A stretch of DNA of 53,115 nt from Francisellaceae bacterium (GTDB lineage Bacteria; Pseudomonadota; Gammaproteobacteria; UBA6186; Azoamicaceae): positions 1 to 53,115 of the forward strand of contig JABJGS010000064.1 in NCBI GenBank assembly GCA_018703155.1. The letters are read 5' to 3'. The position numbers and the translations under genes were made by a program. Shown piece by piece: positions 14,011-25,287 of this stretch; the first letter of the stretch is position 1, and each line of letters starts with the position of its first letter. Under the pieces are notes generated by a model that saw only the letters and a list, made by a program, of their open reading frames with translations, did no database searches and had not been told where the DNA came from.

Positions 14011-15750
14011 CTATAAATTGTTTTTCTGATTAATATCACTGGCACGCTCAGGTTTATGATATAAAAATCCTTGAGCAAACTCGACGCCTAAGTCTTTCAA
14101 AAAATCTTCAACTTCTTTGGTTTCAACATGTTTGACAATCAATATTAAGTTCATAGATCTTGTAGCTGATATTATGCCTTTAATAAAATCAATCATCTCC
14201 TTTTCTTTCATTGTATCATTCAGACTGTTGTAATTTATTTTAACGCCAGTAAATGGGGATGATGCTATTTGACGTAAGCATGCACTAGGTAGGCCAAAAT
14301 CATCTAAATACAACTTAATATTATTATCATGTAGCATATGTAAATGATCTTTTATAGCTTCAAAGTCATCATTTAAGGTTTTTTGTGAAATATCCAAGCA
14401 CATGTTTAAATCTTTATATTCAGGGGCCTGGGTTGTTTTAATTATTCCGTCAATAAAATATTTACTTCGTAGTTGTTTTGTGGAAATGTTAATGTGACAT
14501 TGGCCTGGATTTATTTTTTGGTCATGCCAAGACTGAAATTTTTCAGCTGCATCATTTAAAATGAATTCACCAAGTTCCATTATTACATTTGCAGACTCTG
14601 CAGCTGTAATAAACTCCTCACAGCCAACCTCACCAAGTTGATGGTTATTCCAGCGTGTATATACTTCTTTACCAATCTCTTTACCATTAGTAATATTATA
14701 TATGTTTTGAAACATTAAATAAATTTCATTTTTGCCTAGAGCCGATTTAAGTTCATTGATAAGAAGAAAGTTATAATTGTATGATTTATTCAACTCTTCT
14801 GAATAAAATTGAAAATTATTTTTCCCACAATCTTTAGCTTTGTACATGGCAATGTCGGCACTTTTTTCTAAAGATATAATATCTTCACCTGCATGTGGAT
14901 AGCAAGCAATGCCAATGCTGCATCCAACATTAACATGTTTGTCTTTAATGATAATTGTCTTTTCTAGGCATGCAATTAAACGCTCAGCTACGATAGCTGC
15001 ATCTTTGTAATCATTAACTTCATCGATAATGATAGCAAATTCATCCCCACCCATTCTAGCTAAAAATTTTGGATCATCTAGATCTATGGGCTTTATCGTG
15101 CCAGGGTTATGTAGTGTGTCACATTCACGTAATATTGAGGTGAAAGAGGTGGTTACATATTTTAGTAAATCATCACCAACGTCATGCCCAAGAGTATCAT
15201 TAACATATTTGAAATTATCTAAATCAATGAATAACAAAGCCATGAATGAATTGTTTCTTTTTGCTCTGGAAATTGACGATATGAATTTGCTTTCAAAAAG
15301 CATTCTGTTTGGTGCTTGTGTTAATGGGTCATATGAGGATAAAGTTTTTAATTTATCTGATATATCTACTAATTTTGAACGCATATGAGAAATACGTTGC
15401 ATAGCTTTTATTTTTGCTGAAATAGTAATGTCACTACAAGGTTTTAGCAAGTAGTCATCTCCACCAGCATCAACACCTTTCTTTATATATTCATCATCAA
15501 CTCTAGCACTTAAAAAAATAATTGGAATCCAATTTTTTTCTATGGCCCTTATTTCTTTGGCAATTTGAAAGCCATCAACTTCTTCGTCCATAACTACATC
15601 AAGAATAATAAGGTCAGGATTTTCATTTGTGTATAACTCAAGAATACTATGAACATCTAATGTTGAAACAACCTCGTGACCTAGTTTTACTAGCACATGT
15701 TTTAAGGTCAAAAGAGAGGTTTTTGAATCATCGGCAATAAGTACTTTCAT
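14011..15750 (-). CDS. response regulator with GGDEF and degenerate EAL domains
   Basis: 579 residues, three domains. REC is at residues 1-125 with phospho-acceptor Asp51 in LIILDVV. The GGDEF domain (about 135-320) has an intact GGDEF in RMGGDEFAI; no RxxD inhibitory site is seen before it, so c-di-GMP synthesis is plausible. The EAL-like domain (about 335-575) is divergent: EVYTRW replaces EALLRW, the Glu of the LEITE motif is Asp/Ser (CLDIS), and the loop after DDFG lacks the usual TG. DDFG and QGFLYHKP remain. The EAL half is probably non-catalytic or weak. The gene diverges from the Wsp-like operon across about 110 bases with a shared palindrome and is a likely output regulator of that system. 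Confidence 0.9.
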   Translation of the reverse strand: MKVLIADDSKTSLLTLKHVLVKLGHEVVSTLDVHSILELYTNENPDLIILDVVMDEEVDGFQIAKEIRAIEKNWIPIIFLSARVDDEYIKKGVDAGGDDYLLKPCSDITISAKIKAMQRISHMRSKLVDISDKLKTLSSYDPLTQAPNRMLFESKFISSISRAKRNNSFMALLFIDLDNFKYVNDTLGHDVGDDLLKYVTTSFTSILRECDTLHNPGTIKPIDLDDPKFLARMGGDEFAIIIDEVNDYKDAAIVAERLIACLEKTIIIKDKHVNVGCSIGIACYPHAGEDIISLEKSADIAMYKAKDCGKNNFQFYSEELNKSYNYNFLLINELKSALGKNEIYLMFQNIYNITNGKEIGKEVYTRWNNHQLGEVGCEEFITAAESANVIMELGEFILNDAAEKFQSWHDQKINPGQCHINISTKQLRSKYFIDGIIKTTQAPEYKDLNMCLDISQKTLNDDFEAIKDHLHMLHDNNIKLYLDDFGLPSACLRQIASSPFTGVKINYNSLNDTMKEKEMIDFIKGIISATRSMNLILIVKHVETKEVEDFLKDLGVEFAQGFLYHKPERASDINQKNNL

Positions 15751-15782
15751 TTTGATGTAGGTCCCAATTATAGTTTTTGTTT

Positions 15783-15795
15783 ACCTATAATAGGT
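15783..15795. promoter_or_regulatory. palindrome in the divergent promoter region
   Basis: ACCTAT-A-ATAGGT is a perfect 6-base inverted repeat around one base. It contains a TATAAT on the plus strand and lies between the REC-GGDEF-EAL gene and the chemosensory operon, so a bound regulator could affect both. No protein can be assigned. Confidence 0.35.
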
Positions 15796-15863
15796 TAGCA
15801 TAATCACCTTCAAGGAAGAGCTAGATAATCTATATTTACTAGTATTCAGGTGGAATGAATGTT

Positions 15864-23386: not shown

Positions 23387-23720
23387 TGACAGCTCAACTG
23401 CAAGGTTGTTATTGAAGATGTGCTTAAAGAAACTTGGTGATTTTGAAATTCATGAATCTGGTGATCCTAACGCAGCAATTACAATTGCAAAGGAACAATC
23501 TCCAGATTTATGTATTTTAGATTATAATATGCCAGATATTGTTGGCACTGACCTTGCCGTTAAAATTAAAGAAGTTTGTCCTAACTCTAAATTCATAATG
23601 ATGACAGCGAATATGCAACAGGCGGTTGTTGATGAAGCAAAAAGTGTGGGGTTTTCAGCTTTTATTGAAAAGCCAGTTAATGCTGAAAAGGTATGTATAG
23701 CCATAGAGAGAGTTTTATAG
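23361..23720 (+). CDS. CheY-like single-domain response regulator
   Basis: 119 residues, only a REC domain. Acidic pocket in VVDDS (Asp9, Asp10), phospho-acceptor Asp54 in CILDYNMP, Thr82 in MMTAN, Lys104 in EKPV: all switch residues present. GAGGAG lies 6 bases before ATG 23361, within the 3' end of the cheB reading frame. In this operon it could be a phosphate sink, or the substrate of the CheC phosphatase encoded next. Confidence 0.93.
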   Translation: MSTKILVVDDSSTARLLLKMCLKKLGDFEIHESGDPNAAITIAKEQSPDLCILDYNMPDIVGTDLAVKIKEVCPNSKFIMMTANMQQAVVDEAKSVGFSAFIEKPVNAEKVCIAIERVL

Positions 23721-23723
23721 ACT

Positions 23724-24362
23724 GTGAAAAAATTAACAATTATACAGAAAGATGCCTTGATTGAAATATGTAATGTTGGTATGGCCAAAGCAGCAACACA
23801 ACTTTCAGTGTTGCTAGATACTAAAATTGAATTGACTATACCAGTAATAGAATTATCTCCAGCAAAAGATTTAATAAGCCAAATAAATTCAGACCCACAA
23901 GATAGAATAACTTATGTATCACAAAAAATAAGTGATAGTTTAAAAGGAAGTGCAGTGGTTGCATATAATAGTAATGATTTGTCAGAATCATTATCAAAAA
24001 TTGTTTTAGGAGGTATCGATTCAGTTCGAGATCAAGAAGCAAGGGCTTGTGAAATTGAAGCTGTAACTGAAATTTCAAATGTAATTATATCATCCTGTAT
24101 CTCTAGTATTGCTGATTTTTTAACTATGAAAATAGGAATGTCTATTCCTGAATACTCTGAAGATATTTTATCAGAATCAATAGCTCATATGATTGATAAT
24201 TCAGAGTTGTTATCTGAAAAAACTATTGGTTTCATGACTAAGTTAAAATCAGATGATGCGGGTATTGACGGTGTTCTTATGTTACTGCTTGATTATGTTT
24301 CAGTGAATAATCTATTGGAAGCTATAGATGATTTATTTGGGAGCCATGATGGAAGCAATTGA
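23724..24362 (+). CDS. CheC-type CheY phosphatase
   Basis: 212 residues with two active-site-like repeats of the CheC/FliY/CheX family: DALIEICNVG near the N-terminus (D-x3-E-x2-N), and EAVTEISNV in the second half (E-x3-E-x2-N), each followed by the conserved Pro about 22 residues on. Such proteins remove phosphate from CheY-P. Start is GTG 23724, 3 bases after the cheY stop. CheC is not a part of the known Pseudomonas Wsp operon, so this is a notable addition. Activity is inferred from the motifs. Confidence 0.82.
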   Translation: MKKLTIIQKDALIEICNVGMAKAATQLSVLLDTKIELTIPVIELSPAKDLISQINSDPQDRITYVSQKISDSLKGSAVVAYNSNDLSESLSKIVLGGIDSVRDQEARACEIEAVTEISNVIISSCISSIADFLTMKIGMSIPEYSEDILSESIAHMIDNSELLSEKTIGFMTKLKSDDAGIDGVLMLLLDYVSVNNLLEAIDDLFGSHDGSN

Positions 24363-25287
24363 CTCTGGTGTAATGCGTGAAATTTGTGATGAATTGCCAA
24401 TGGGTTTCTTCCTCTTAAATGATGAGAAGGAAATATATTTTTGGAATCATTGGTTAGTTGAAAAAACTGGTATTACTGTAGAACAAGCATTGACTAGTAC
24501 ATTGCCCCAGTTGATTCCAGATGTTGACAGTAGAAGGTTTGACTGGGCTGTTGAAGAAGTTTTGAAAAATAATATTCCACAAGTTATGTCAAATGCCTTA
24601 AATGAATATCTTCTTCCCATACACTTAGAAAATAGTGCTTATGATGAAATTCAACATATGCAACAGCAAATAAAAATAATTCCTATTGAGAGAGATGGGA
24701 ATAGATATGCTGCGGTGATGATTTCAGATATTACAGATTCAGTTTTGCAAAAACAGACTTTAATTAAAATGGCAGTTCGCTTAGAACAAGATAGTTTTCA
24801 TGATCCTCTGACCAATGCTTATAATAGAAGGTATATGTGGAATTGGTTAGAAAAAAACATGCACCTAGGAGCACGTGAAGGTTTTACTATTGGTTGCTGT
24901 GCTTTTGACTTAGATAATTTCAAAAAGGTCAATGATGTTTATGGACATGATCGTGGTGACCAAGTATTAGTGAGTTTTTCAAAATTATTGATGGATAGTA
25001 AGAGAGCATCATCATTAATTGTACGTATTGGCGGTGAAGAATTTGCTGCATTATTACCAATGGCAAGTTTACGGGATACTATTTTATATGCTCACAGAGT
25101 CAAAGTTACACTTTGCGAGCAGTCTATAGCAGGATTTGAAGTTGGTGAAATTACTACAAGTATGGGATGTTCTGTTTGGATGCCTACAGATGCTGTTTCA
25201 TGTGATGAGCTACTAAAAAGTGCAGATGAGCTCTTATATCTAGCTAAGGGTGCAGGCAGAAACTGTGTCAAACCAGATTTAACTTAA
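24349..25287 (+). CDS. PAS-GGDEF diguanylate cyclase
   Basis: 312 residues from ATG 24349, which has GGGAG 5 bases upstream; earlier in-frame ATGs at 24328 and 24346 are less well placed. A PAS-like domain fills about residues 10-130 (PMGFFLLNDEKEIYFWN). A short helix and a GGDEF domain follow, with DPLTNAYNRRY, the Asp-containing FDLDNFKKVND, and active-site RIGGEEFAAL. GGEEF is catalytically competent in this family. It lacks a REC domain, unlike WspR, so control may come through PAS or protein contacts. It is the last gene of the chemosensory operon and its probable c-di-GMP output. Confidence 0.9.
   Translation: MEAIDSGVMREICDELPMGFFLLNDEKEIYFWNHWLVEKTGITVEQALTSTLPQLIPDVDSRRFDWAVEEVLKNNIPQVMSNALNEYLLPIHLENSAYDEIQHMQQQIKIIPIERDGNRYAAVMISDITDSVLQKQTLIKMAVRLEQDSFHDPLTNAYNRRYMWNWLEKNMHLGAREGFTIGCCAFDLDNFKKVNDVYGHDRGDQVLVSFSKLLMDSKRASSLIVRIGGEEFAALLPMASLRDTILYAHRVKVTLCEQSIAGFEVGEITTSMGCSVWMPTDAVSCDELLKSADELLYLAKGAGRNCVKPDLT

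Follow-up and report, generated by a model that had tools for sequence, protein, structure and literature searches.

To what output is the chemosensory operon at positions 14011–25287 of contig JABJGS010000064.1 connected? The contig belongs to the assembly of a Francisellaceae bacterium (GCA_018703155.1; 2.32 Mb in 82 contigs), and by the window we mean the whole stretch of it that was analysed, 53,115 bp in length. A preliminary description of this DNA had read the operon as a non-flagellar relative of the Pseudomonas Wsp system, with an output to cyclic di-GMP (c-di-GMP) and with CheY and CheC added, and this our results support: the flagellar che cluster of the organism lies on another contig and the operon CheA falls outside the flagellar clade. 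We favour, at a probability of roughly 0.6, a non-flagellar chemosensory pathway which controls c-di-GMP via CheY, CheC and a PAS-GGDEF protein, this trio being an old portable cassette that was captured once.

Analysis of the open reading frames (ORFs) together with Pfam searches recovered every gene that had been named, in the same order and with the same domains, subject to corrections for the methyl-accepting chemotaxis protein (MCP), for CheB and for the PAS domain. The features, with receiver domains given as REC and histidine phosphotransfer domains as Hpt, are as follows.

14011..15750, minus strand: divergent REC-GGDEF-EAL response regulator (Pfam; EAL residues compared with MorA structures)
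15855..16307, plus strand: first CheW (PF01584, 1.3e-19)
16304..17725, plus strand: CheR methyltransferase with a weak C-terminal TPR (PF01739, 1e-37; TPR_2, 4e-5, under the curated cut-off)
17749..18264, plus strand: second CheW (PF01584, 1.4e-17)
18257..20155, plus strand: MCP with a transmembrane segment, HAMP and signalling domain (PF00015, PF00672; frame translation)
20161..22305, plus strand: CheA-REC hybrid kinase with Hpt (H54), HATPase with N and G boxes, CheW and a C-terminal REC (Pfam, motifs, trees)
22308..23360, plus strand: CheB methylesterase, its ORF running to 23198 and the rest of the coding sequence, to about 23360, in a different frame (PF00072; PF01339 up to profile position 121 of 174)
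23361..23720, plus strand: CheY, a stand-alone receiver with phospho-acceptor D54 (PF00072)
23724..24362, plus strand: CheC phosphatase with two active sites, E14/N17 and E116/N119 (PF04509, NCBIfam CheC)
24346..25287, plus strand: PAS-GGDEF diguanylate cyclase, alternative start at 24328 (PF00990, 2.6e-34; PAS from homologues and predicted fold)
25365..25442, plus strand: tRNA-Arg, directly downstream of the operon (ARAGORN)

The spacing is that of an operon, with a 4-bp overlap between cheW and cheR, gaps of 5 bp (MCP gene to cheA), 2 bp (cheA to cheB) and 3 bp (cheY to cheC), and an overlap between cheC and the cyclase gene; a scan for promoters and terminators returned sites no more numerous than in shuffled sequences. 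The TPR match that is subthreshold in the window CheR is clear in its relatives. Domain search and structure alignment both identify a CheC domain with its catalytic E/N pairs, the nearest solved structure being Thermotoga maritima CheC (1xkr, 2.1e-15), and phosphatase activity on CheY~P is predicted. The PAS domain of the cyclase received no Pfam call, and was assigned from homologues and from a predicted fold matching PAS-GGDEF structures; the prediction is of modest quality (pLDDT 72) and its best full-length matches are PAS-GGDEF proteins. Since the cyclase keeps a GGEEF motif and lacks the RxxD inhibitory site (I-site), it is predicted to be active and free of product inhibition through that site.

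A search for the ordered gene set in other genomes, one of the checks proposed at the outset, was successful: the order CheW-CheR-CheW-MCP-CheA-CheB-CheY-CheC-PAS-GGDEF occurs in nine other genome records, spread over the Legionellaceae (L. quinlivanii among them), a third gammaproteobacterial family and, in the Betaproteobacteria, two metagenome-assembled genomes (MAGs). It is complete in G051, G241, G504 (L. quinlivanii, NZ_MVJN01000004.1), G503, G498, G500 and G399; the family label Legionellaceae was taken via the L. quinlivanii record, in which the operon stands at the same place as in G504. The Sulfuricella denitrificans MAG and the other betaproteobacterial MAG have the nine genes plus a second MCP, the latter also one further inserted gene, and in G429 the contig breaks off at cheY, the order being kept to that point. 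For one CheW in each of two of the nine loci the assignment rests on its position and size or on a follow-up search using a closer query. Because the same nine-gene order recurs in this manner the arrangement is well beyond chance, and the idea that the operon is an oddity of one genome was rejected. The window proteins are 19–48% identical to those of five of the nine-gene loci that were compared, and the MCP signalling domain reaches 58% identity to its operon relatives. Receptor input varies, from transmembrane-HAMP in the window to a PAS domain in G051 and L. quinlivanii, two PAS domains in G399 and a protoglobin in G241, where an additional Hpt-like gene also separates cheB from cheY.

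In the CheA tree the operon proteins form their own clade (bootstrap/SH-aLRT 97/94; 98 in a separate tree), apart from the Wsp (100), Chp (100) and flagellar sequences and with G380 just outside. The MCP signalling-domain tree agrees with it inside the clade, while one that includes the other receptors of the source genome has long branches and is uninformative beyond the operon clade. Placing CheA and MCP among the chemosensory classes was successful in part: CheA lies outside the flagellar and Wsp clades, and as deep sister of its clade Wsp, flagellar and Chp sequences are each retained at P values of the approximately unbiased test (p-AU) of 0.10–0.18. Within that range fall Wsp as sister of the whole clade (0.18) and a union with flagellar CheAs (0.10). 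A tree that unites the nine-gene CheAs with Wsp alone is rejected (p-AU 0.014), and in every locus of the clade with a full core the MCP stands fourth, in the fixed series CheW-CheR-CheW-MCP-CheA-CheB. The suggestion that this is Wsp with its MCP moved to fourth place, that is, a rearranged Wsp, was accordingly abandoned. Two CheW, CheR-TPR, CheA-REC and CheB are held in common with Wsp; the CheA is not in the WspE clade, and cheB is followed by CheY, CheC and PAS-GGDEF, not by REC-GGDEF. CheR-TPR marks clusters for alternative cellular functions (ACF; PMC3447774). The operon, a candidate ACF member, has both this protein and a non-flagellar enzymatic output, the outputs of the clade being cyclases, EAL proteins or histidine kinases.

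What follows the constant core varies. CheA of the operon kind is present in 36 of 143 Legionellaceae genomes (E ≤ 1e-90), and in eight of the 16 such loci that were read the same core is followed by a REC-class III nucleotidyl cyclase (L233–L238, L240, L241; mostly one large genus, with one contig beginning inside the core), pointing to cAMP or cGMP as the probable product and not to motility. The output of G380 is a REC-EAL protein and a hybrid kinase, and outside the Legionellaceae we found REC-GGDEF (L117), REC-REC-GGDEF (L118) and a REC-PAS-histidine kinase (Motiliproteus). Since REC-cyclase, REC-GGDEF, REC-EAL and REC-kinase proteins all succeed the same core, the place behind cheB serves as an output slot whose content can be exchanged.

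The trio that fills this slot in the window is far from restricted to it. Relatives of CheC were detected in 43 of 369 sampled Gammaproteobacteria (E ≤ 1e-12), mostly away from cheA, and in these stand-alone loci CheY and CheC precede a protein with a specific N-terminal PAS, behind which lie GGDEF, HisKA-HATPase, a further PAS with a kinase, a hybrid kinase, GGDEF-EAL, or nothing. A hidden Markov model of this PAS (A6; 15 rows including the window protein, which matches at 8.9e-52) gave 70 matches in 63 of the same 369 genomes, with cheC directly upstream in 67 and cheY upstream in 69; two of the exceptions, those without CheC that do have a neighbouring gene, keep CheY, and one has neither. 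Among the first 40 matches CheC was located by computation and CheY by inspection of the loci that were read, whereas the other 30 were searched directly for both. These counts should be read with the caution that A6 was built from PAS domains next to CheC, though the profile itself is blind to neighbours and was built without the weaker matches, which lie at loci with a fused REC-CheC. Such fusions of CheY and CheC in a single ORF occur in at least 20 loci, which form one clade. In a phylum-wide sample A6 matched in 92 of 398 genomes, and CheY-CheC lay upstream in all ten of the loci inspected, PAS-only ORFs included. PAS-only ORFs of about 145–165 amino acids directly follow a fused REC-CheC in L312–L316, L320 and L321. 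Outside the class, one cassette (L317:2234-6899) contains two CheC genes together with a PAS protein of 930 amino acids that bears two receiver domains.

In the window the A6-type PAS is directly preceded by cheY and cheC. A tree of CheY, CheC and PAS places the nine CheA-linked trios in a single clade (SH-aLRT 99), which suggests that the trio was captured once, long ago, into the output slot. CheY residues D9, D10, D54 and K104 and CheC residues E14 and N17 are invariant in 51 of 51 cassettes, and the second CheC site is kept in 9 of 9 CheA-linked ones. The preliminary description had seen a PAS substituted for the receiver of the output cyclase; as this PAS subfamily nearly always follows CheY and CheC, the three would have come in as one unit. 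A literature search of partial coverage found no description of CheY-CheC-PAS as a unit. To a still broader proposal we give about even odds. CheY-CheC-PAS would be a widespread, unrecognised three-protein unit whose reader of CheY~P or CheC-CheY~P is a dedicated PAS subfamily instead of a receiver, and which relays the signal to the fused enzyme; joined to a chemosensory core, the unit would place c-di-GMP under the control of the array, and the sister operons ending in a REC-nucleotidyl cyclase would explain the chemotaxis genes of flagella-less Legionella as second-messenger pathways.

In the mechanism that we propose, the chemoreceptor array (MCP, two CheW and CheA), together with adaptation by CheR and CheB, would drive autophosphorylation of CheA. 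The phosphoryl group would pass to the lone CheY, and presumably also to the CheA receiver and to CheB. Either by itself or in complex with CheC, CheY~P would then dock on the PAS of the PAS-GGDEF protein and so alter cyclase activity in one direction or the other, and CheC would end the signal by dephosphorylating CheY. CheY and PAS-GGDEF would amount to WspR split in two, the receiver acting in trans and provided with its own phosphatase. A PAS that reads CheY~P or CheC-CheY~P is suggested because the output slot is conserved, CheY is obligate, the phosphatase is dedicated, and the PAS follows them whatever enzyme is attached. The PAS-GGDEF protein of one Legionellaceae operon (L231:4910-6253) carries a C-terminal Hpt with its phospho-histidine intact (HRLKSSA), hinting at contact with receivers. 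As for the earlier suggestion that CheY and the phosphatase buffer the flow of phosphate, the conserved operon contains no REC-GGDEF, and CheY as obligate output carrier is for that reason the likelier role.

Several points weigh against this pathway. Two of the nine operon genes are interrupted in the source assembly. Frame translation puts the true start of the MCP at ATG 18257, as against TTG 18422 in the ORF listing, and an in-frame TAG at 18401–18403 cuts the protein after its first 48 codons. CheB has a frameshift at about 23180–23195, just ahead of the catalytic-Asp loop, and its C-terminal remainder lies in another frame up to cheY; intact orthologues in relatives measure 345–360 amino acids, and both genes have uninterrupted copies there. 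The pathway may in consequence be impaired in the source organism. Stand-alone cassettes have no linked cheA, so that other kinases would have to supply phosphate to their CheY, and CheY is not necessarily specific for the operon CheA; the listing of Pseudomonas syringae Psyr_0886, a REC-CheC protein, as predicted partner of a bacteriophytochrome kinase (PMC5654926) fits cassettes fed in this way. Where the PAS is joined to a histidine kinase the flow could even be reversed, from kinase to CheY. The source genome lacks CheZ, and CheC could also serve the flagellar CheY. Lastly, the interaction of CheY, CheC and PAS, like the phosphotransfer, is deduced from sequence.

Flagellins and three chemosensory clusters (on contigs C17 and C35, and the window operon) are present in the source genome. 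By ORF reading the C17 cluster has flhF/fleN/fliA-type neighbours and its own CheA and CheY; it is the flagellar che cluster, with cheA directly after cheY and no cheZ between them (L020:16785-16795), and no CheZ domain was found in the genome. No flagellar gene, which would have made this an ordinary chemotaxis cluster, was recognised in the window gene list, and identification of the window operon as the flagellar cluster was rejected. The C35 cluster contains CheD, and its CheA is present as two ORFs in different frames (L021:5751-7867). HDOD-domain proteins of similar size adjoin this cluster (L021:2908-4266) and the window operon (window 26780–28165). The remains of an ABC exporter, with numerous stops and frameshifts and clearly a pseudogene, occupy 10500–12000 of the window on the minus strand; this exporter and the split C35 CheA are the broken genes noted elsewhere in the assembly. 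Among ten genomes of the same family searched with CheA only other CheA types were found.

In none of the other genomes with the nine-gene operon did the divergent gene at 14011–15750 turn up next to it, and this gene is a neighbour specific to the source genome, outside the conserved operon. Its GGDEF motif is intact. In an alignment to MorA the first Glu of its EAL domain is retained, as are the Asn, the DD pair, the Lys and the Gln, and the residues of the EITES and EGVE motifs are replaced, leaving the catalytic set, as it is known from EAL enzymes in general, incomplete; the domain is predicted to be inactive as a phosphodiesterase.

This gene is central to one alternative, which is that the operon is Wsp proper, its CheA signalling mainly to the divergent protein as a WspR-like partner while CheY and CheC buffer or drain phosphate. 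A receiver, an intact GGDEF and a degenerate EAL could indeed make a REC-cyclase, and the core gene content resembles that of Wsp; but none of the other nine-gene loci has the gene, CheY-CheC-PAS exists as an independent cassette, and the CheA lies outside the Wsp clade, the union being rejected as given above. We regard this as unlikely. An accessory chemotaxis cluster for the flagellum, with CheY binding the motor and CheC replacing the missing CheZ, would suit a genome with flagellins and a flagellar che cluster without cheZ. That cluster, however, has a CheA and CheY of its own, the operon CheA forms a separate clade (even if a union with flagellar CheAs has p-AU 0.10), the downstream gene encodes a cyclase, and the same order of the core has been reported from L. 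longbeachae, which has no flagella (PMC2824747), all of which makes the proposal very improbable.

The operon might instead be decaying, with little present function in the source organism and the pathway in use among its relatives alone. The stop in the MCP and the frameshift in CheB speak for this, as do the decayed exporter about 2–4 kb away and the failure of a CheA search to find the operon in ten genomes of the same family. On the other side, only two genes are hit, by a single lesion apiece, and the remaining seven are whole, with all their motifs; CheA, CheY, CheC and GGDEF have kept their active sites, and a draft assembly, in which the C35 CheA is split as well, can carry single-base errors. 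Decay is in our judgement doubtful, and a pathway from the array to c-di-GMP through the CheY-CheC-PAS cassette remains the reading that we prefer.

Chemosensory pathways with cyclase outputs are known from Pseudomonas Wsp (WspA-F, WspR), which shares with the window operon an MCP, two CheW, CheR-TPR, CheA-REC, CheB and a GGDEF output. In Wsp the MCP comes first, whereas here it is fourth, CheA belongs to a separate clade, receiver and cyclase are on separate proteins, and CheC is added. What appears to be unnamed is the CheY-CheC-PAS unit, which may deserve a name of its own; a common cassette that pairs CheY and its own phosphatase with a PAS-bearing enzyme might provide a new way of linking phosphorylation to c-di-GMP. 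In Bacillus and Thermotoga, too, a CheC with two E/N active sites acts on CheY. The window operon differs from those systems in lacking CheD (one is present on C35) and in having PAS-GGDEF, not the flagellar motor, as partner. For an action of CheY on cyclases by protein contact there is a parallel in Shewanella oneidensis CheY3, which binds several diguanylate cyclases (PMC7666153); it is the flagellar CheY there, and no CheC-PAS cassette was seen in the text available.

The closest comparison is with Legionella. The chemotaxis system of L. longbeachae (llo3298-llo3303; PMC2824747) has the reported order CheW-CheR-CheW-(llo3301)-CheA, a che operon is described from other Legionella (PMC5655016), and the CheA clade is common to the Legionellaceae sampled. 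Unlike the window operon, the eight comparable Legionellaceae loci end in a REC-class III nucleotidyl cyclase without CheY-CheC-PAS, and the CheR scanned there has no TPR, L. longbeachae itself being compared by its published order. The presence of chemotaxis genes without flagella in L. longbeachae has been left unexplained (PMC2824747, PMC5655016). Since either a nucleotidyl cyclase or CheY-CheC-PAS-GGDEF closes the operons of the Legionella type that were read, they are predicted to act through second messengers, which offers a testable answer to this printed puzzle, and the sister form with the other cyclase may account for the chemotaxis genes of some non-flagellated Legionella.

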